Source: Flavobacterium sp. Sd200
Lineage (GTDB): Bacteria; Bacteroidota; Bacteroidia; Flavobacteriales; Flavobacteriaceae
Assembly: GCF_009826935.1 (NCBI RefSeq)
Contig: NZ_WUMN01000001.1
Coordinates: forward strand, 930,001 to 994,000
Direction of reading: 5' to 3'
DNA length: 64,000 bases
Below the pieces are notes generated by a model that did no database searches, had not been told where the DNA came from, and worked only from the letters and a program-made list of their open reading frames with translations. The position numbers were made by a program, and so were the translations under genes. This document shows positions 28,156 to 38,520 of this stretch, piece by piece. Each line of letters opens with the position of its first letter. Position 1 is the stretch's first letter.

Positions 28156-30066
28156 CTATTCTATTTTTCCTTTTTTAATTTCCTCAATAATTTCAGGATT
28201 TAAAAGTGTAGTTGTATCACCGAAATTACTAAAGTCGCCCTCGGCAATTTTACGTAATATTCTCCTCATGATCTTGCCCGAGCGCGTTTTTGGAAGTCCG
28301 GAAACAAACTGTATTTTGTCAAGCTTGGCAATAGGTCCAATGTGGCTCGAAATATGCTCATTGATCTCTTTTTCAAGATTTTCTTTAACACGTCCTGCAC
28401 CTGATTCTTTAAGGATTATAAATCCGTAAAGTGCGCTACCCTTAACATCGTGAGGGAAACCAACAATAGCGGATTCGGCAACTGCAGGGTGCTCATTAAT
28501 AGCATCTTCAATTGGAGCTGTGCCCAGATTGTGGCCCGATACAATTACAACATCGTCTACACGCCCCGTGATTCTGTAATAGCCTACTTCATCGCGCAAC
28601 GCACCGTCTCCTGTAAAATATTTACCAGGGAAAGTACTAAAATAAGTATCTTTAAATCTTTGGTGGTCACCCCAAATGGTACGCGCCATGCCCGGCCAAG
28701 GAAATTTAATACAAAGACTTCCCACTACCTGGTTGCCTTCAATTTCATTACGCCTCTCATCCATAAGCACCGGCTGTACTCCCGGTAGCGGTAATGTTGC
28801 ATAGGTTGGTTTTGTTGGAGTAACGAACGGTAATGGAGATATCATTATACCACCTGTTTCAGTTTGCCACCATGTGTCTACAATTGGCGATTTCTTTTTA
28901 CCAACGTGGTCATTATACCAGTGCCATGCCTCTTCATTAATAGGCTCTCCTACTGACCCTATCACTTTAAGCGAACTAAGGTCATGTTTATCTACCCAAC
29001 TCCAGTTTTCTTTAGCCAACGAACGAATAGCAGTTGGTGCTGTATAGAACTGTGTAACCTTATGTTTGTCTATAACTTCCCAAAAACGTCCAAAATCAGG
29101 GTATGATGGTACACCTTCAAAAAGCACAGTAGTTGCACCGTTTAACAATGGTCCGTAAAGTATGTATGAGTGCCCTGTAATCCAGCCTATATCGGCAGTA
29201 CACCAGTAAATATCATTCTCTTCGTAAGCAAATATGTTTTTAAATGTATACGCTGCATAAACCATATAACCTGCTGTAGTGTGCAGCATTCCTTTTGGTT
29301 TCCCTGTAGAACCCGATGTGTATAGAATGAACAAAGGATCTTCAGCATCCATTATTTCGGCAACGTTGTTAGCAATAGCTTCGTCAAGAAGTGGCTGTAG
29401 CCATTGGTCACGCCCTTCTTTCATATTTATTTCTGCATTAGTACGTTTTACTACCAATACTTTCTCTACAGTTGGGCAGCTTTTAAGCGCCTCATCTACA
29501 ATTCCTTTAAGATCAATGGTTTTGCTGCCACGGTAGCCACCATCTGAGGTTATTACCATTTTACAGCCTGAATCGGTTACCCTGCTGGCTACCGCCGAAG
29601 CCGAGAAACCAGCAAATATTACAGAGTGTATAGCGCCAATTCTTGCACATGCCAGTACTGCTACGGCAAGTTCCGGTATCATTGGCAGGTATATACATAC
29701 CCTGTCTCCCTTTTTAATGCCTTGCTCACGTAAAACATTAGCCATTTTAGCTACACGATCGTACAGTTCGTTGTAGGTTATTTTTTGTGCCTCTTCATCA
29801 GGATTATTAGGTTCAAAAAGAATGGCAGTTTTATCGCCTCTTTTTGCCAAATGACGGTCTATACAGTTTTTTGTAATGTTAACCTTTGCATTAATAAACC
29901 ACTTTACATCGGCCTCCTGCATATCAAACTCTACAACTTTATCCCATTTTTGGTACCATGTAAAGTTTTCATCAGCTACTTTATCCCAAAACTTTCTGGG
30001 CTCTCTCACTGATTTATTATAGTGCTTAAAGTATTGTTCTAAGTTTTGTACCTGATAGTAACTCAT
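28156..30066 (-). CDS. acs: acetyl-CoA synthetase (acetate--CoA ligase)
   Basis: This 636-residue AMP-forming enzyme makes acetyl-CoA from acetate, ATP and CoA. It has the adenylation motif YTSGSTGKPKGM, WWQTETGG, YFTGDGALRDEVGYY and the C-terminal LPKTRSGKIMRR. Lys598 there is the residue whose acetylation switches off Acs in other bacteria. Length is standard for Acs. It is the last gene of a same-strand series: porin, MHS transporter, symporter-kinase, receiver. It has its own 129-bp upstream gap containing the 26-bp motif shared with the InsA-like regulator gene. Confidence 0.95.
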   Translation of the reverse strand: MSYYQVQNLEQYFKHYNKSVREPRKFWDKVADENFTWYQKWDKVVEFDMQEADVKWFINAKVNITKNCIDRHLAKRGDKTAILFEPNNPDEEAQKITYNELYDRVAKMANVLREQGIKKGDRVCIYLPMIPELAVAVLACARIGAIHSVIFAGFSASAVASRVTDSGCKMVITSDGGYRGSKTIDLKGIVDEALKSCPTVEKVLVVKRTNAEINMKEGRDQWLQPLLDEAIANNVAEIMDAEDPLFILYTSGSTGKPKGMLHTTAGYMVYAAYTFKNIFAYEENDIYWCTADIGWITGHSYILYGPLLNGATTVLFEGVPSYPDFGRFWEVIDKHKVTQFYTAPTAIRSLAKENWSWVDKHDLSSLKVIGSVGEPINEEAWHWYNDHVGKKKSPIVDTWWQTETGGIMISPLPFVTPTKPTYATLPLPGVQPVLMDERRNEIEGNQVVGSLCIKFPWPGMARTIWGDHQRFKDTYFSTFPGKYFTGDGALRDEVGYYRITGRVDDVVIVSGHNLGTAPIEDAINEHPAVAESAIVGFPHDVKGSALYGFIILKESGAGRVKENLEKEINEHISSHIGPIAKLDKIQFVSGLPKTRSGKIMRRILRKIAEGDFSNFGDTTTLLNPEIIEEIKKGKIE

Positions 30067-30131
30067 TGCGTTAGTTTTGTTTTGTTTTTTAAAGACTACG
30101 TAAATATATTAATGATATTTTTTAAATCCTA

Positions 30132-30157
30132 TATATTTATGCAAAAATAATATATAT
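30132..30157 (-). promoter_or_regulatory. candidate operator upstream of acs (26-bp shared motif)
   Basis: On the minus strand this 26-bp segment is identical to 37242-37267 at the start of the InsA-like gene. Its core TATTTTTGCATAAATA is a 16-bp near-palindrome centred on TGCA with one mismatched pair. It lies 66 bp upstream of the acs start codon, a suitable position for activator or repressor binding. Confidence 0.58.
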
Positions 30158-30195
30158 AACATTATAATTCAGCTATTTTTAGAAGTTTTTTAGTA

Positions 30196-30564
30196 TTACT
30201 TTTCTTCTAAAAGCAAATTGACTTCTTCTGTAAGTTTTTTAATCGAAAATGGCTTTGTTAAATATAGGTTTGCCCCTAATGATAATCCTTTTTCAATATC
30301 TGCCTCTTTGTTTTTTGCAGATAAGAATATAACCTTACAATTTTTAAGTCTCTGATTTTGTTTTATCTGTTCTAGCGTTGCATAACCATCTACATGAGGC
30401 ATCATTACATCGAGTATAATTACATCCGGAGAGTGTGTTTTTAGCAACTCCAGTGCTTCCTGTCCGTCGCGGGCTATATATACTTCAAAATTGTTCTTTT
30501 TAAAAGTATATTCCAGAGACATTACTATGTTAGGTTCATCGTCTACAATTAAGATCTTTTTCAT
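30196..30564 (-). CDS. stand-alone response regulator receiver protein (CheY-like)
   Basis: A single REC domain of 122 residues with the complete phosphorylation site: acidic pair Asp8/Asp9, phospho-acceptor Asp52 in ILDVMMP, Ser82 in FLSAK and Lys104 in LTKP. There is no output domain, so it cannot bind DNA itself. It follows the symporter-histidine kinase gene after 24 bp and is the natural receiver for it. In the gammaproteobacterial CrbSR system the equivalent partner carries a DNA-binding domain. Confidence 0.9.
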   Translation of the reverse strand: MKKILIVDDEPNIVMSLEYTFKKNNFEVYIARDGQEALELLKTHSPDVIILDVMMPHVDGYATLEQIKQNQRLKNCKVIFLSAKNKEADIEKGLSLGANLYLTKPFSIKKLTEEVNLLLEEK

Positions 30565-30588
30565 TTTGCATTTTGGTTTGTCGCGTGG

Positions 30589-33276
30589 TTAGTTATGTAT
30601 CGGTAATGTAAAAATAAGGCTGGCTCCCCCACTCTCACGGTTTTGAGCCCATATCCTACCTTTATGATATTCTATTATCTGTCGGCTTATAGCCAAGCCC
30701 AACCCACTGCCCACGGGTTTTTTAATGTTTTGGTTATTAGACTGATAAAATTTATCAAAAATAGTTTCAAGATCGTCCGGGTCTATGCCTTTACCATTAT
30801 CGTTTACCGTAGTTATGATATCTCTGTCATCTGCATTTATCGTGATAAAGATACTACCGTTTTGTTCAGGACAAAACTTTATGGCATTAGACACAAGATT
30901 TGTTATTACCTGTATTATTCTGTCCTCATCATAAAACGCATTTACAGTACCGCATTTTATCTGATGTATGGTTATGCCCTTGTTTTTTATGAGTTGTTGC
31001 AGGGGTTCAAGGGCTTTTTCCATTGTAGTGTCAAGATTATTCACCGTGGCATTCATGCGTTGTTTGCCGGTTTCAAACCTTTCAAGGTCAAGGATTTTGT
31101 CAATGAGCCTGTTAAGCCTGTCCGATTCGGATATTATATTCTGCAAAAACTGTTTTCTAAGCCCCTCGGGTATTTCGTCATCTTCATACAAAATTTCGCT
31201 GGCAGCTTTTATAGCTGTTATAGGCGTGCGCAACTCATGGGTAACGGTATCTAAAAACTCATCCTTTTGGCGGTCTTTAAACACCAGTTTTTCATTGGCA
31301 CGTTGCAATTCTTTAGTTGTAACTTTAAGTTTGTTGGAAGTATCCGTAAGTTTTTTATTAATGATGATATTCTCTTTAGATTCCTCCAGTATATTGAGCA
31401 GCTCCGGAAGCGTTATTTTGTCTTCCTTAACCACACTCGATATTAGTATCCTGGCTGATGCCGTACCTATGTGGCCTGTAAGTAAATTTTCGGCAAACTT
31501 AATAAGGCGTGCATCGGCTATGTTCTGGTTACGGTCTACATCATATTTTGCATGAAAAATATTTAATGCTCTTGCAGTGCGCTCTTCACCCAAAAAGCGG
31601 TTCAATACATTTTGTATCTCACTTGTATATGCAGTACCTTTCCATATAAAAGCGTTTTCGTGCATGGTTATGTATTTGTCTATATCTATAAACATTTCGG
31701 CATAATTGCGCTCCCTGTAATTACCCCTGAAAGTTACCGATACCACAAGAAAAGTAAAGATATTAGCGAACATGCTCCAAAATAATGCATGCGGAATTGG
31801 ATCAAGATAATCAAGGCCAAAAAGTTCAAAGGGTTTTAACATATCTATTCCGAAAAGGCCATTAGAAATAAAACTGCTGCCCATGTGCGATGCTCCTGTT
31901 GCATATGGAATCAGTAATGTAAAAGTACATACTGCAAAACCCATAGTAATTCCCCATATTGCACCAAGCCTTGAGCCACGCCTCCAGAGTATGGCTCCAA
32001 AAAAAGCAGGTGCAAGCTGCGCTATAATTACGAATGATACGAGCCCGATAGACACAAGGTTATAATCGAGCACTACCATTCTGTAAAGCAGATAGGCAAT
32101 TATGATAAGGCTAAAGATACCTATGCGCCTAATGTTTACAATGCGTCGCGTATTTTGTTCCGGGTTTACCGATTGTAATGTGCCTAAATATCCGTAAGGA
32201 ATCAATATGTTATTACTCAACATGGTAGACAGGCCAATGCAGGCAACCACGATCATGCTTATGGCGGCTGAGAACCCTCCTAAAAATACTAAGACCGTTA
32301 TAAATTGGTTGCCCATTAATTGAGGTATAAGCAGCGAATAGGTATCGGCGTTTACAAATTTTCCTTCAAAAATTATGTTACCTCCCCACGCTATAGGATA
32401 TACAAAAATATTTATAAGCAAAAGGTAAAGCGGGAAAAGCCACAATGCCGTGCGAACATGGCTTTCGCGATGATTTTCTATAACCGACATTTGGAACTGC
32501 CTTGGCAATAAAAATATGGCGAATAGCGAAAGAACACACAGTAAAAACCAATTAATGGCCTGTGGTATGCCGCCTATGGTGTTTTTCTCTGCAAAACTTT
32601 CTATGGCCGATGCCTGTGTGTAAATATCATCAAAACCATCGAATACAAAAAAGGTAACATAGAGCCCTACCAAAAGAAAGAAAAACAGCTTTAGTAACGA
32701 TTCCATAGCTACGGCTGTAACAATACCCTTACGCTTTTCGGATGCATCTACATAGCGGGTGCCATAGTAAGATGAAAATAATGCCAATGCAATGGCTACA
32801 TAAGTAGTTGTATCGCTAAAAAAAGCTGATGCCTGAGATGTTTTTGCTACTACGTGAAATGTTTCTGATATCGCTTTGAGCTGCAGTGCTATATAGGGTA
32901 ATATTCCCAATAGGCAAACCACTGATACTATAGCCCCTAAAAAACGACTGTTACCATAGCGAAGCGAAATAAAGTCGGCTATGCTCGATACTTTGTTGAT
33001 GCGTGATATACGGATAATACGTACAAGTATAAATATCCATGCAGGTATGCCTATTATTGGGCCAATATAAGTAGGCAGATAATTAAGGCCGGAGTTCGCA
33101 GCAACGCCTATACTACCATAGTATGTCCAGGCAGAACAATATACTGCAAGCGATAATGAATAAACATACGGGTTGTTTGTCCATTTACTGTTGCCTTTTT
33201 TTTCTGCCCAGTGTGCAACAAAAAATAAAAGCCCAAGATAAACCGCAAGAATAAGCAACAATACTATACTATTCAT
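30589..33276 (-). CDS. Na+/solute symporter-sensor histidine kinase fusion (CrbS-like)
   Basis: This 895-residue protein joins an SLC5-type sodium/solute symporter domain of about 13 TM helices (about 1-510; SAWTYYGSIG, ISLRYGNSRFLG, GGFSAAISMIVVA) to a cytoplasmic kinase. The STAC-like/linker region (about 515-650) is followed by HisKA (His in FLDTVTHELRTPI) and HATPase_c (DNGKGIDPDDLE, GSGLGLAISRQI). The architecture is that of CbrA/CrbS sensors, which couple transport or sensing of a substrate to phosphorelay; CrbS controls acs. Its start overlaps a small two-TM gene by 8 bp. Confidence 0.92.
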   Translation of the reverse strand: MNSIVLLLILAVYLGLLFFVAHWAEKKGNSKWTNNPYVYSLSLAVYCSAWTYYGSIGVAANSGLNYLPTYIGPIIGIPAWIFILVRIIRISRINKVSSIADFISLRYGNSRFLGAIVSVVCLLGILPYIALQLKAISETFHVVAKTSQASAFFSDTTTYVAIALALFSSYYGTRYVDASEKRKGIVTAVAMESLLKLFFFLLVGLYVTFFVFDGFDDIYTQASAIESFAEKNTIGGIPQAINWFLLCVLSLFAIFLLPRQFQMSVIENHRESHVRTALWLFPLYLLLINIFVYPIAWGGNIIFEGKFVNADTYSLLIPQLMGNQFITVLVFLGGFSAAISMIVVACIGLSTMLSNNILIPYGYLGTLQSVNPEQNTRRIVNIRRIGIFSLIIIAYLLYRMVVLDYNLVSIGLVSFVIIAQLAPAFFGAILWRRGSRLGAIWGITMGFAVCTFTLLIPYATGASHMGSSFISNGLFGIDMLKPFELFGLDYLDPIPHALFWSMFANIFTFLVVSVTFRGNYRERNYAEMFIDIDKYITMHENAFIWKGTAYTSEIQNVLNRFLGEERTARALNIFHAKYDVDRNQNIADARLIKFAENLLTGHIGTASARILISSVVKEDKITLPELLNILEESKENIIINKKLTDTSNKLKVTTKELQRANEKLVFKDRQKDEFLDTVTHELRTPITAIKAASEILYEDDEIPEGLRKQFLQNIISESDRLNRLIDKILDLERFETGKQRMNATVNNLDTTMEKALEPLQQLIKNKGITIHQIKCGTVNAFYDEDRIIQVITNLVSNAIKFCPEQNGSIFITINADDRDIITTVNDNGKGIDPDDLETIFDKFYQSNNQNIKKPVGSGLGLAISRQIIEYHKGRIWAQNRESGGASLIFTLPIHN

Positions 33277-33463
33277 AATACCTTTTTATTACAAATAATG
33301 ATAACAGTATTGATGCCGCCCATATCGAAAAAAAGTAAACATAAATGAGCGGGATCCCTCCTATAGATTGTGCACTGTCAAACAGTAACAGCAAAGGCAT
33401 ATTGAATGCTACTAAGAGCATAACAGCCAGAATAATAAGTTTTTGCTCGTGCCTTTTTTTCAT
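33269..33463 (-). CDS. small two-TM protein, possible symporter small subunit
   Basis: A 64-residue protein with two hydrophobic helices (about 9-28 and 37-60) joined by an IGGIPLIYVYF segment. It resembles the DUF4212-type small subunits encoded next to acetate symporters, which carry a similar IGGFPLGFWF-like stretch. It overlaps the symporter-kinase start by 8 bp, so the two are probably translated together. The small-subunit role is inferred from topology and place. Confidence 0.65.
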   Translation of the reverse strand: MKKRHEQKLIILAVMLLVAFNMPLLLLFDSAQSIGGIPLIYVYFFSIWAASILLSLFVIKRYYE

Positions 33464-33530
33464 AAGTGTTTATAATAGCCATAGCCTCCGCTTGCGGGGA
33501 GGCTACAGCAAATATTCAAAACTAAATTAA

Positions 33531-33752
33531 CTACACATTATCATATTCGCCTTTAACAGCATAAAACCCAAATATACCCAAGCCTGCTACAATTAGCGGT
33601 GTTAGTATAAATAGTATAATAATGCCAAACACAAGGTCTTCCTGTTTGCCCGATGAAAATTTAGGCAAACCAAATTCAAATATACAAAAGTAGGCGGCAG
33701 CTAAGGCAAGAGCCATCCATACTATTCCTAAAATTCTTTTTAATGCTTTCAT
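33531..33752 (-). CDS. small two-TM membrane protein (DUF6814-like)
   Basis: A 73-residue protein with helices at about 8-26 and 42-66 and a conserved-looking SGKQEDLVFGIIILF stretch between. It lies 12 bp downstream of the MHS transporter gene, and I recall similar proteins at this spot in other flavobacteria under the name DUF6814. Function unknown; an accessory subunit for the transporter is possible. Confidence 0.65.
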   Translation of the reverse strand: MKALKRILGIVWMALALAAAYFCIFEFGLPKFSSGKQEDLVFGIIILFILTPLIVAGLGIFGFYAVKGEYDNV

Positions 33753-33764
33753 AACTATAGTGTA

Positions 33765-35306
33765 TTAGTCGTGTTCTACGTTGTTTTTCGCTTTTAAATA
33801 TACCATACCTACCACAAAGCTAATGGCCGCTATTACAATAGGATACCATAACCCTTCAAGGTAAAACTCAGGATCGCCTGCATCTTTGGCTGTCGTTACA
33901 AAGTAGGTGGATATTGCCGGGAGCAATCCTCCAAAAATACCGTTACCTACGTGATATGGCAGTGACATCGAAGTATAACGAATCTTAACAGGGAACATCT
34001 CTACAAGGAATGCTGCTATCGGCCCATACACCATGGTCACAAATATTACCTGTATAAACACCAACAGTATCAACCACCAACGGTCACTATCATTAATAGT
34101 TATAGTAGTTTTTGTGTCGGCTTTTGCCTTGCCGTCTACCATAATCGGCTGTCCGTCTTTAAGGTGAACTGTTTTAACCTGAACCCATTTGGTACCGTCT
34201 TCAAACTCTTTTTTAGAGGTATATACAGAATCTATGGCTCCTTCGGCAGTTTCTTTTGTTATGCTTTCAACAGATGCTTTATCTACAAGCTCTGTTTTAG
34301 TTGTTATATCTGTCGTTTTATACATTGCAGTATAAATAGGCCTGTAAAGCAATATAGCTGCCAGCATACCTGTCATCATGATGGTCTTACGCCCAACCCT
34401 GTCGCTCAGCCATCCAAAGAACACAAAGAAAGGTGTTGCAATAAACAAAGCTATACCAAGTAATGCATCTACCTGCGAAGAATCAATAAACATAACTGTT
34501 TTAAGGAAGCTCATGGCATAGAACTGCCCGGTGTACCACACAACACCCTGCCCCATTGCCGCGCCAAATAGCGCAAGCAATACAAACTTAAGGTTGTACT
34601 TATTACCAAAACTTTCTTTTAAAGGGTTTGTTGTTGTCTTGCCCTCAGCTTTGGCTTTTGCAAATACAGGAGATTCGTGCATTTTCCTTCGGATAACATA
34701 AGATACCACTACCATTAGTATCGAAATAAGAAATGGTATCCTCCATCCCCAAAGGTCAAAGTCTTCTGCGCTCATGGCTGCTCTTGTAGCCAGTATAACC
34801 ATCAGCGATATAAAGAGGCCAAAAGTTGCCATGGTTTGAATCCAGGAGGTCCAGTAACCACGTTGGTTGTTAGGCGAGTGTTCTGCCACATACGTCGCCG
34901 CTCCGCCATATTCTCCACCCAAGGCAAGCCCCTGTAATAAGCGGAGTATCAGCACGGCGAGAGGTGCCCAGAAACCTATACTTTCATAACTGGGAATACA
35001 GCCTATTAAAAATGTTGCTCCACCCATTAGCAAAAGCGTTACCATAAAGGTATATTTTCGCCCAATAATATCGCCAAGACGGCCAAAGAACAATGCCCCA
35101 AATGGCCTTACAACAAAACCTGCGGCAAAGGTTGCCAGTGTAGAAAGAAACGCCGCCGTAGGATTATCGGCCGGGAAGAATTTGGTAGAGATTACAACGG
35201 CAAGGCTGCCGAAAATGTAAAAGTCATACCACTCTATAAGTGTACCGAGGGACGATGCGGTAATAACCTTCCAGATCCCTTTTGTAGATGTTTGCTCGTT
35301 ACTCAT
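33765..35306 (-). CDS. MFS transporter, metabolite:H+ symporter (MHS) family
   Basis: The 513-residue transporter has 12 TM helices. MHS hallmarks are present: GTLIEWYDFYIFG, RPFGALFFGRLGDIIGRK and LQGLALGGEYGGAATYVAEH. Members import proline/betaine, citrate, ketoglutarate or other carboxylates. A polar segment at about 330-410 (Lys/Glu/Thr-rich) lies between two late TM helices and makes the protein about 80 residues longer than typical. It lies 20 bp after the porin gene, so the two likely form an outer/inner membrane uptake pair for a carboxylate. Confidence 0.88.
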   Translation of the reverse strand: MSNEQTSTKGIWKVITASSLGTLIEWYDFYIFGSLAVVISTKFFPADNPTAAFLSTLATFAAGFVVRPFGALFFGRLGDIIGRKYTFMVTLLLMGGATFLIGCIPSYESIGFWAPLAVLILRLLQGLALGGEYGGAATYVAEHSPNNQRGYWTSWIQTMATFGLFISLMVILATRAAMSAEDFDLWGWRIPFLISILMVVVSYVIRRKMHESPVFAKAKAEGKTTTNPLKESFGNKYNLKFVLLALFGAAMGQGVVWYTGQFYAMSFLKTVMFIDSSQVDALLGIALFIATPFFVFFGWLSDRVGRKTIMMTGMLAAILLYRPIYTAMYKTTDITTKTELVDKASVESITKETAEGAIDSVYTSKKEFEDGTKWVQVKTVHLKDGQPIMVDGKAKADTKTTITINDSDRWWLILLVFIQVIFVTMVYGPIAAFLVEMFPVKIRYTSMSLPYHVGNGIFGGLLPAISTYFVTTAKDAGDPEFYLEGLWYPIVIAAISFVVGMVYLKAKNNVEHD

Positions 35307-35326
35307 TTGTTTAGTTAATTATAGTT

Positions 35327-36715
35327 TTACAGATAAATTTGAAGTTGTACTAAGAATTCTCCTTTTAAGCTTGATGAAGATGGGGTTGTATATACCGGCC
35401 TTGTAGAATATTGAGTAGTTATCTTGGCATGATGCCCATCTATATAAAAGTTAGATCCAATATCAAACTGGGCACTGGCTTTGTCGAGAGCATCAAAGTT
35501 TTTGTGGGTAAAAGCACCAAACGGCTGCACCCTTACTTTAGGCTTCTCACTTGAATCGGGAATAAGATAACCTGCCTGCGTGTACCATATTGTTCCGCTG
35601 CCAATAGTTGGCTGTGCGTTACCTGCTCCTGCAAGTGCCCTCGTGCCTGTAAAACCTGCATCAGGCACACCCACATTCATTATACCAAGGTCGCGCAGGT
35701 AGTTTGAACCAAAATCGTAGCTGTAAAACACGCTGTAAGCTGTTATCGCTGCTTTTTTAGTACCTATCGGCATATCTAAAAAAACATCTCCTGCAAACAG
35801 GTTTATATCGTGTTTATCCTGTGTACCGGCAGCATTGCGTGATCGGGTGCCATCGGGCGCCATATAAAAACCGGCTCCCACATTAAATACCTTTTTCGTG
35901 CCCACATAGCTACCCACTTTATAAGGCAACAGGTTGCTTTCGGTTTCAAGGAACTGGTATTCAAAATATCCTGCCTTGCTCCATTTTGTATTCCCACTAT
36001 TATCATAAGCAACACCTTCAGGCCTTACATAGCCGCCTCCCGTATTGGTTTCTAATACATTTATATTTGTAGCAAATGGTTTATTATAGCTAAGTCTGTA
36101 TTCAAACTTGCCATATTTACCTTTAGCAAATAAACCCATCTGGCGCGCAAACTGGTCAGAGTTTTCAATAAGAGGCCAGTTGAATATAGGAGCATCAGCA
36201 GCAAGATAGTTTAACGTAGAAGACATTGTCATACGGGAAAGTCCCATATAGTAATGCAAACCACCACCCAGGCTCAGGCTGAATTTTCCGCTCTCTCCCG
36301 GAAGTATTACAGCATACTCGTTCCATGCATCATGAAAAAAGATACCGGGTTTTTTAGCAGCACCATATCCGCCTGTGCCTACAGTACTTGCAGCTCCACC
36401 ATTGGTAAATGTTTGGTTATTAATACCAAAATGTGCAAGCACCATATATCGTTTAGATATTTGTGCATATAATAACATACGAAGCCTGCGGCTGCCAATA
36501 TCGGTACTGGAAGTAGCTGCCTCGCCGTTTATCATGGTGCCGGGATTCATTTCGGAAGAGCGGAACCATATCTGGTTCCAAACTATAGCACGCATATATT
36601 TTGTGCCCGTAGAGTCTAGGTTAAACTTTAAACCCGACCCGTATTCTGAAGATCCCTGCGAAAAACCTGTCCAGGAAAACAGGAGTAAACCCGCGATGAT
36701 GGATAATTTTTTCAT
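35327..36715 (-). CDS. outer-membrane beta-barrel porin-like protein
   Basis: The 462-residue protein has a signal peptide ending SWTGFSQ. A long series of alternating polar/aromatic beta strands (FEYRLSYNKPF, YFEYQFLET, FLVQLQIYL at the very end) fits an outer-membrane barrel of the phosphate-selective-porin-like kind. It heads the transcription unit with the MHS transporter, so it probably admits the same solute. Its upstream region carries a 14-bp sequence matching the acs/InsA motif at 13 positions. Confidence 0.78.
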   Translation of the reverse strand: MKKLSIIAGLLLFSWTGFSQGSSEYGSGLKFNLDSTGTKYMRAIVWNQIWFRSSEMNPGTMINGEAATSSTDIGSRRLRMLLYAQISKRYMVLAHFGINNQTFTNGGAASTVGTGGYGAAKKPGIFFHDAWNEYAVILPGESGKFSLSLGGGLHYYMGLSRMTMSSTLNYLAADAPIFNWPLIENSDQFARQMGLFAKGKYGKFEYRLSYNKPFATNINVLETNTGGGYVRPEGVAYDNSGNTKWSKAGYFEYQFLETESNLLPYKVGSYVGTKKVFNVGAGFYMAPDGTRSRNAAGTQDKHDINLFAGDVFLDMPIGTKKAAITAYSVFYSYDFGSNYLRDLGIMNVGVPDAGFTGTRALAGAGNAQPTIGSGTIWYTQAGYLIPDSSEKPKVRVQPFGAFTHKNFDALDKASAQFDIGSNFYIDGHHAKITTQYSTRPVYTTPSSSSLKGEFLVQLQIYL

Positions 36716-36800
36716 GGTTAATAATAGGATTTAGGTGAACGAATGTTTGTTTCTTTCCTCTAAATTCTAAAATTTTAACCATTGAATGCTAATATTAATA

Positions 36801-36814
36801 TATATTTATGTAAA
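36801..36814 (-). promoter_or_regulatory. porin-promoter copy of the acs/InsA motif (13 of 14 match)
   Basis: On the minus strand TTTACATAAATATA matches the right part of the 26-bp motif (TTTGCATAAATATA) with one change. It lies 86 bp upstream of the porin start codon and downstream of the InsA-like gene. Confidence 0.42.
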
Positions 36815-36823
36815 GTGGTATAG

Positions 36824-37243
36824 TTAATCTTTAAAACGCTCCCATTTTATAAGCATAAATTTATCGCCAAGCTCAGTAATGATCATACCTGCACCCGATA
36901 ATTGCTGCTTGTTTTTAAGATATTCTACAAGCTCTAAGTGGTTAAAAATCTTATATGTAGGATGATAATCACCATGGGATGGCTTGGTGATATTAAATTC
37001 CTTAACCCAGTTGCTGATAGTAACGTGGGAGACACCCAAAATACGCTCAATTTCTCTGTAGCTAAGTCCTTCCAGATATAGTTGCAATGCCTTAGTAACA
37101 TAGTAGTTATCTATCTTTTTGCCTAGTTTGTTTACCGTAAAATAGTATTTGCATTTTTTGCATAAATACCTTTGTTTATCGTTAACCACGCCGCTTTTAA
37201 CAATCTGATCGTTTTGGCACTTTGGGCAGGCTAAAATATCCAT
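36824..37243 (-). CDS. IS1 InsA-like zinc-ribbon/HTH protein, probably domesticated regulator
   Basis: The 139-residue protein starts with a zinc ribbon (CPKCQ at 6-10 and CKKCKYYF at about 28-35), as in IS1/IS1595 transposase N-termini. An HTH (about 55-90; LYLEGLSYREIERILGVSHV) follows, with a C-terminal 45 residues unlike a transposase. There is no DDE domain, no insB partner and no inverted terminal repeats nearby, so it is not a working IS. It heads the acetate/porin gene series and has the 26-bp motif over its own start codon. A DNA-binding regulatory role is inferred. Confidence 0.72.
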   Translation of the reverse strand: MDILACPKCQNDQIVKSGVVNDKQRYLCKKCKYYFTVNKLGKKIDNYYVTKALQLYLEGLSYREIERILGVSHVTISNWVKEFNITKPSHGDYHPTYKIFNHLELVEYLKNKQQLSGAGMIITELGDKFMLIKWERFKD

Positions 37244-37267
37244 ATATATTATTTTTGCATAAATATA
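37242..37267 (+). promoter_or_regulatory. 26-bp motif over the InsA-like gene start
   Basis: This is identical to the reverse complement of 30132-30157 upstream of acs. The segment overlaps two bases of the InsA-like start codon and extends upstream of it, so a bound protein would block expression. The core is TATTTTTGCATAAATA. Confidence 0.58.
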
Positions 37268-37384
37268 CTAATTTAGCAACAATATAAAAATGAATAATAA
37301 AAAAATAATTTACTTTTTTTATTTACTGAATAATTTTAAACTTATTTTACTGAAAATAAATTAAGTTTAAAGCAATTGCAAACA

Positions 37385-38061: not shown

Positions 38062-38520
38062 TTATGCCGTAATTATATTACTGTTTTTTACTTCGCCTAT
38101 CATAAAAGTACTGTGAGTGCTCCCAATGTGTTGCAATGTTGTAAGCTTGGTTACCATAAATTCACGGTACTCTTCCATATTCGCTACATATATTTTGAGT
38201 ATGTAATCATAATCTCCGCTTACATGATAACATTCTAATACTTCATCCAGCTTTGCTACCTGTTGTTCAAATTTAGCTATATATTCTTTAGTATGCTGCA
38301 CGAGCTTTACATGGCAAAAAACCACAAATGCCCTGTTTACTTTATTACGGTCTACTAAGGCTACATAGCGGCTGATGACATTTTCACGTTCCAGTTTCTT
38401 TACACGTTCATAAACGGCTGTTACGGAAAGGCCAAGTTTAATAGATAACTGTTTGGTTGTTTGCGAACTATCTTCCTGCAACAGATATAGTAATGTTTTA
38501 TCGGTTTCATCTAAAGTCAT
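38062..38520 (-). CDS. Lrp/AsnC-family transcriptional regulator
   Basis: The 152-residue protein has an N-terminal HTH (about 5-60; TTKQLSIKLGLSVTAVYERV) and a C-terminal RAM/AsnC ligand-binding domain (about 65-145; VLECYHVSGDYDYILKIYV). It usually senses amino acids. It is divergent from a methionine gamma-lyase-like gene, which is its probable target; a short perfect dyad lies between them. Confidence 0.9.
   Translation of the reverse strand: MTLDETDKTLLYLLQEDSSQTTKQLSIKLGLSVTAVYERVKKLERENVISRYVALVDRNKVNRAFVVFCHVKLVQHTKEYIAKFEQQVAKLDEVLECYHVSGDYDYILKIYVANMEEYREFMVTKLTTLQHIGSTHSTFMIGEVKNSNIITA

Follow-up and report, generated by a model that had tools for sequence, protein, structure and literature searches.

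Why do the promoter of an acetate--CoA ligase gene (acs) and the start of a gene for a small, transposase-like protein share a long exact sequence, and what reads it? The question arises in a 64,000-nucleotide stretch of the Flavobacterium sp. Sd200 genome (positions 930,001 to 994,000 of contig NZ_WUMN01000001.1; hereafter the window), where a 26-bp repeat lies both upstream of acs and at the beginning of a gene for a protein of 139 residues resembling InsA of the insertion sequence IS1. Comparison with orthologous loci points to a conserved operator, and we consider it probable that this operator belongs to the InsA-like protein, which would bind it, activate acs and prpE (the gene for propionate--CoA ligase), repress its own gene, and be set by a histidine kinase and a receiver protein coded by the same cluster. 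Among the important carbon sources of these bacteria are acetate and propionate; to our knowledge, few pairs of regulators and operators are known for flavobacteria.

The shared repeat and the conserved 15-bp box

A sequence-only reading of the window had proposed that one motif marks the acs promoter and the start of the InsA-like gene, and direct inspection bears out its starting point: positions 30132-30157 on the minus strand equal 37242-37267 on the plus strand over all 26 bases. With both strands considered, every other exact repeat of the window is shorter than this pair, and in 40 copies simulated with a fourth-order Markov model repeats reached 20 bp at most. In the whole 4.53-Mb genome the 16-bp core has just two exact matches, both at this locus; with up to two mismatches it yields 40 genome matches versus 22 for a reversed-pattern control, and the loose core alone is thus only mildly enriched. 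The same reading placed the sites in the gaps of one cluster, which needs the amendment that the 37242-37267 copy is not wholly intergenic, as it shares two bases with the ATG of the InsA-like gene (37243-37241). It also described the core as a near-palindrome. That description is true of the two copies in the window, which have 2 mismatches to their own reverse complement, but the orthologous boxes are asymmetric, and a palindrome was accordingly ruled out as the binding unit. The 26-bp extent was discarded as a unit too, because the identity of the two sites over this length has been lost in F. rivuli and F. subsaxonicum.

What is conserved among orthologues is an asymmetric 15-bp box with the consensus TGCTAAATTANTATA. 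Of the 43 loci in our first set, 42 have two such boxes with a period of 19 bp before the InsA-like gene, the second usually extending up to the ATG; in two of the loci (L049, L084) both boxes of the pair have the same 15 bases. In the window, it is the second box that forms part of the 26-bp repeat common to the InsA-like gene and acs. We built a 15-bp matrix (maximum score 21.4 bits) solely from the 84 InsA-side boxes of these 42 loci and applied it to a validation set of 75 named loci (1.34 Mb, mostly Flavobacterium), none of which had been used for the matrix. Both boxes reached 14 bits in 69 of the validation loci and at least one did so in 74, the single exception (L191) being a stretch that begins at the gene, at a contig edge, where the upstream DNA is not scorable. 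Thus, the motif is kept in orthologous promoters, a check that had been named beforehand. It is also rare elsewhere: among the 187 boxes of at least 14 bits in the validation loci, 143 are at the InsA-like gene, all in the orientation of the gene, and 37 are within 160 bp upstream of acs or prpE, all inverted, with only 7 in other places (180 of 187 at one or the other site). The proposed common motif therefore survives as a conserved, probable operator, with its unit redrawn as the 15-bp asymmetric box, in tandem at the InsA-like gene.

The box in acs and prpE promoters and its distribution

The acs box of the window has the inverse orientation to the boxes of the InsA-like gene. In all 17 boxed acs/prpE promoters of the first set, the window's acs included, the word TAnnTTTAC is found exactly 46 bp after the box start; promoters were counted as boxed at 14 bits or more outside the fetched clusters and at 12.5 bits or more inside them, and the 17 are not fully independent, some of the genomes being close relatives. 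By comparison, the DNA upstream of acs in the comparison genomes contains this word 8 times in 11,700 bases. Among the validation acs/prpE promoters, sorted by the distance to the recognised gene before them, a box was found in 34 of the 42 with 80 bp or more and in none of the 74 with less. These 34 boxes have one orientation throughout, and show the 46-bp spacing in 30 cases and a 47-bp spacing in two more. Judged by its sequence, the downstream word is a variant of the sigma-A −7 element TAnnTTTG, which a transcriptome study of F. psychrophilum reports at −12 to −5 (PMC9723704). With the −7 box in that position and the 46-bp spacing, the operator box would extend from about −58 to −44 relative to the inferred start. 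This is a usual location for an activator. The name prpE is given by the best NCBIfam match, propionate--CoA ligase (744 bits, under the cutoff of 955).

Close orthologues of the InsA-like gene (76-88% identity) are found in 19 of 60 further genomes of the genus, that is, in 20 of 61 with the own genome included, and five more have only weak matches. At the family level 24 of 249 genomes, again counting the own one, have a match at E <= 1e-20, and at the phylum level 32 of 395 at E <= 1e-15. While acs is present in all 61 genus genomes, the SLC5-type kinase is found in 21, namely the 20 carriers of the InsA-like gene and one further genome (G031), in which the kinase is cut by the contig end and the InsA-like gene may be present unseen. 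The kinase follows the InsA-like gene in all genus loci but one (18 of 19), that one stopping at a contig edge, and in 22 of 23 family loci (the exception is L094). We scored 39 acs promoters from genomes with no detected InsA-like gene (38 of the 41, G031 among them): all remained under the 14-bit threshold, which 1.2% of random 300-bp promoters reach, and the best scored 12.6. Among the carriers, 11 of 20 have at least one boxed acs/prpE promoter. Outside the family there are 19 InsA-like matches, for which 13 loci were fetched. The ten of these with a kinase/receiver pair are the same ten that have at least one box of 13 bits or more upstream of the InsA-like gene; the three with neither are distant (41-51% identity), and one of them is on a 4-kb contig with upstream DNA too short to judge. 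We conclude that there is good support for an operator shared by the InsA-like gene and acs, in its conservation, position, orientation and fixed promoter spacing, and in its absence from the acs promoters of genomes in which the gene was not found.

To what extent the operator reaches further genes cannot be read from single boxes. A genome-wide scan, as had been suggested with the original motif, gave 42 matches of the relaxed box in the own genome against 38 for the control, and a stricter single-box pattern matches in 44 of the 61 genus genomes, with or without the InsA-like gene. A single box thus tells little without its position, and a regulon drawn from single boxes was dropped in favour of a composite pattern consisting of the box, 31 bases and TAnnTTTR (placing the −7 word at 46 bp). 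Across the 61 genomes this pattern has 17 exact matches: 16 in the 20 carriers and 1 in the other 41. Of the 16, 13 precede acs or prpE; one exact match near a contig end has nearly the sequence of the acs promoter of G040, and another precedes the kinase and the small protein before it, sp1 (G050). With one mismatch allowed, there are 48 matches in the 20 carriers (reversed-pattern control: 5), including intergenic ones before methylmalonyl-CoA mutase in three genomes (G013, G040, G048) and before a biotin carrier/biotin carboxylase pair in three others (G010, G029, G047). The NCBIfam name of this carboxylase is that of an acetyl-CoA carboxylase subunit; we infer that it serves propionyl-CoA. 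With the carboxylase so assigned, it and the mutase would fit, with prpE, in the route from propionate to succinyl-CoA. In the own genome, acs is the sole convincing target. As a side observation, ACGAAAACGTTTTC lies just downstream of the box in three biotin carrier promoters (L288, L289, L290), and a palindrome resembling it lies just upstream of a prpE box (L034); such palindromes beside the boxes suggest a second regulator.

The candidate reader of the box and the alternatives

Several lines of evidence point to the InsA-like protein as the reader of the box: no other cluster gene tested codes for a recognised DNA-binding domain, the best boxes are at its own promoter, and much of its helix-turn-helix is invariant. 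We propose that it would bind the 15-bp box and, from the −58/−44 position, would activate acs and prpE, a role suggested by the location of the box. At its own gene the boxes overlap a −7-like word and the start codon, and binding there may repress the gene, in the manner of InsA in IS1. In response to acetate or propionate, the activity of the InsA-like protein would be set by the SLC5-type kinase and the receiver-only regulator. The most likely route, and the simplest guess, is that the phosphorylated receiver contacts the InsA-like protein directly. The InsA-like protein is thus most likely the DNA-binding output of an acetate/propionate switch in Flavobacterium and its relatives. We advance more tentatively, as somewhat more doubtful than probable, the wider proposal that throughout the class an SLC5 kinase and a receiver-only regulator act on a separate DNA-binding protein derived from an IS1-type transposase, which governs an acetate/propionate regulon through a newly recognised operator. 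Should the main proposal hold, what could readily be taken for a remnant of a transposase gene would code for a conserved metabolic regulator with a predictable operator, and the system would illustrate how a kinase and a receiver-only regulator can reach DNA.

Several observations weigh against this interpretation. Its support comes from genome comparison, and the InsA-like gene and the kinase/receiver pair are present or absent together, such that their co-occurrence cannot separate their roles. Eight of the 42 separate validation promoters are without a box, as are the acs/prpE promoters of 9 of the 20 carrier genomes. In the eight of these nine that were measured (all but G014), no more than 25 bp separate the end of the regulator gene from the start of prpE or acs, and a separate promoter is therefore not expected there; second acs copies elsewhere in the same eight genomes have no box. 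One of the 16 exact composite matches is within a glycosyltransferase open reading frame (ORF) (G013; L287), probably by chance, and the one-mismatch pattern matches 25 times in the 41 genomes without the gene (control: 13). In the own genome the methylmalonyl-CoA mutase was found with no box, and a search there for the biotin carrier homologue came back empty, a result that is weak by itself. To these points may be added the near-equality of the relaxed box and its control, a score of 0.1 bits for the porin box of the window, and strong own-genome boxes near other ORFs (L096 (1651), L100 (1688) and L105 (1723)). Malate dehydrogenase was tried as a target and not counted: its one-mismatch matches (G013, G040, G050) are inside the end of the preceding ORF, where they may reflect coding conservation. 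Separately, a 19.8-bit box (17-bp matrix) in the other orientation was seen in the own genome before the succinyl-CoA ligase alpha gene (L099 (1651)). This box and the three near other ORFs may be chance matches or extra targets.

The alternative that survives best holds that the operator is real and controls the InsA-like gene and acs, with the box being read by another DNA-binding protein coded elsewhere and the InsA-like protein having a different role. The identity of the box-binding protein is indeed drawn from sequence comparison, the window codes for an Lrp/AsnC-type regulator (38062-38520) some 0.8 kb upstream of the InsA-like gene, and some of the strong own-genome boxes are near other genes. 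However, the most conserved box pair is at the InsA-like gene itself, none of the 38 tested genomes without the detected gene has a boxed acs promoter, no further DNA-binding domain was found in the cluster genes tested, and the DNA fetched around 42 other loci contains no match to the Lrp gene. Hence, we regard another reader as unlikely. That the shared sequence represents no more than a sigma-A promoter element is very improbable: TATTTTTG of the core does fit TAnnTTTG, in agreement with the −7 consensus reported for F. psychrophilum (PMC9723704), but most orthologous acs/prpE boxes have TATTTAGC in the same position, which departs from TAnnTTTG; a separate −7-like word follows downstream in every boxed promoter of the first set; and acs promoters of genomes without the detected gene have no box.

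We give next to no weight to the view that the copies are remnants of a mobile element, IS1-like and with motif-like ends. The InsA-like protein does resemble the N-terminal half of the IS1 transposase (NF033558, 82.1 bits, under the cutoff of 100), but this view is already contradicted by the single copy in the own genome, the lack of a DDE match in Pfam and NCBIfam, a synteny conserved across genera and families (terminal repeats had no separate search), and motif positions that are tied to promoters. Lastly, coincidence in AT-rich DNA, to which the base composition of the region, the control-like frequency of the relaxed box genome-wide and the loss of the exact 26-bp extent in the two nearest named relatives might lend colour, is already contradicted for the 15-bp box by the 40 simulated windows and by its conservation in 42 of 43 first-set loci and 74 of 75 validation loci, and its probability is negligible. 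The interpretation that we prefer remains that of an operator read by the InsA-like protein.

The gene cluster and its counterparts

The cluster is coded entirely on the minus strand, in the order InsA-like gene, porin, MFS symporter, small DUF6814 protein (sp2), 62-residue protein (sp1), SLC5-type histidine kinase, receiver and acs (Table 1).

Table 1. Operator boxes, promoter element and genes of the cluster, with positions counted from the first base of the window.
Feature	Positions	Strand	Sequence	Evidence or remark
acs, acetate--CoA ligase	28156..30066	-		TIGR02188, 957.6 bits (cutoff 725)
−7-like element of the acs promoter	30100..30108	-	TATATTTAC	begins 46 bp after box start
Operator box upstream of acs	30140..30154	-	TATATTATTTTTGCA (on acs strand)	pattern match; score 18.8 of maximum 21.4
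Receiver-only response regulator, 122 aa	30196..30564	-		Response_reg domain
SLC5-type sensor histidine kinase, CbrA/CrbS-like	30589..33276	-		HisKA and HATPase_c; residues 6-459 match 10ed_A
sp1, 62-aa protein directly before kinase	33278..33463	-		match in 69/75 named loci
sp2, small DUF6814 protein	33536..33752	-		PF20664, E 4.5e-30
MFS metabolite/H+ symporter	33765..35306	-		TIGR00883, 359 bits (below cutoff 443)
Porin	35327..36715	-		NF040900, 42 bits (far below cutoff 150); no Pfam match; name partly from the sequence-only reading and context
Possible degenerate box	36809..36822	-	TATACCACTTTACA	directly after InsA-like stop, upstream of porin
InsA-like protein, 139 aa	36824..37243	-		zinc ribbon and helix-turn-helix (Pfam/NCBIfam); C-terminal beta-alpha-beta-beta
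Operator box 2, InsA-like gene	37245..37259	-	TGCAAAAATAATATA	19 bp downstream of box 1; ends beside ATG
Operator box 1, InsA-like gene	37264..37278	-	TGCTAAATTAGTATA	tandem pair in 42/43 loci; at least one box >=14 bits in 74/75 validation loci

The InsA-like protein matches NF050000 with 42.7 bits (cutoff 28) and HTH_23 over its cutoff, with Zn_ribbon_InsA at 24.9 bits falling just under 26.1. Across 30 sequences, 33 of its 139 positions are invariant. An AlphaFold2 model (mean predicted local distance difference test score 81.6, predicted template modelling score 0.60) displays strands at 14-36 and helices at 46-82, followed by the C-terminal beta-alpha-beta-beta unit. A fold search with this model returned no PDB match at E <= 0.001, leaving the C-terminal part without a named fold; Lrp/AsnC-like structures gave weak matches only (template modelling score about 0.27). 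The kinase region that matches PDB 10ed_A does so at E 4.8e-50, this being the one distinct solved sequence matched; Pfam and NCBIfam gave no match in its SLC5-like N-terminal part. For the receiver, the family search found no DNA-binding or output domain, and all 107 copies measured are of 119-127 residues with the phospho-acceptor motif.

The nearest functional counterparts are the CrbS/CrbR (MxtR/ErdR) systems of Vibrio and Pseudomonas, which likewise combine an SLC5-domain kinase with control of acs (PMC5715377, PMC9100948). The likeness extends to a conserved promoter motif at acetate-use genes: the ACTU motif is described at such genes, and as not found in Enterobacteriaceae that are without the CrbS/CrbR system (PMC5715377, PMC9100948). 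However, CrbR is reported as a LuxR-family protein with an imperfect inverted repeat as its site (PMC5715377), whereas here we find a receiver-only regulator and an asymmetric box, in tandem at the adjacent InsA-like gene. As the LuxR-type regulator, a defining feature, is missing here, we do not class the system as CrbS/R of Gammaproteobacteria, though we take it to work in a like manner. IS1 InsA, which is reported to repress its own promoter (PMC12428005), resembles the present protein in its N-terminal zinc ribbon and helix-turn-helix; for the present protein, autorepression of a promoter that overlaps the binding site is a proposal of our model. In contrast to IS1 InsA, the present protein is coded by a single-copy gene with no InsB/DDE part, syntenic with metabolic genes, and is a proposed activator elsewhere. 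A further likeness is to CbrX-CbrA of Pseudomonas, in which a small protein also precedes the kinase (PMC6591292, PMC13022988); the N-terminal half of our kinase is homologous to CbrA in 10ED, the structure of the CbrXA SLC5-STAC unit (PMC13022988, a preprint). The regulator and targets differ, and sp1, whose place before the kinase recalls that of CbrX before CbrA, has no sequence match among solved chains. The titles and abstract openings among the top results from an open-licence library included none on this regulator or operator, which is weak evidence of absence.

The third copy of the motif, which the sequence-only reading placed upstream of the porin, fares less well than the other two. 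Positions 36801-36814 (TATATTTATGTAAA) do agree with the corresponding half of the 26-bp repeat in 13 of 14 bases, but the site amounts to no more than a degenerate box, if that, with its register shifted to 36809-36822. In 41 of the 43 loci of the first set, TATA is found at +0 to +2 from the InsA-like stop codon; within the genus a shortened box continues from it, and in some other genera TATAGTAATTTAACA does. A box of at least 14 bits follows the stop in 6 of these 43 loci and in none of the 75 validation loci. No consistent spacing to a porin −7 element emerged, a loose word being 51-53 bp from the TATA in 13 of the 43 loci and elsewhere or nowhere in 30. An operator at this site is possible but weak.

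Some further contexts were seen at individual loci. Three InsA-like relatives of 41-51% identity (L094, L318, L321) have no boxes, and no kinase/receiver pair in the fetched stretch; the first, a 42% relative, adjoins acs, and the second also has acs nearby. They possibly represent an older, kinase-free form. The gene for sp2 adjoins that of the MFS symporter in the genus loci with both, and sp2 is a possible transporter accessory. Finally, the distant locus L317 has a second strong tandem box pair 483 and 502 bases past the InsA-like start, in the orientation of the gene, unlike the inverted post-stop boxes elsewhere.

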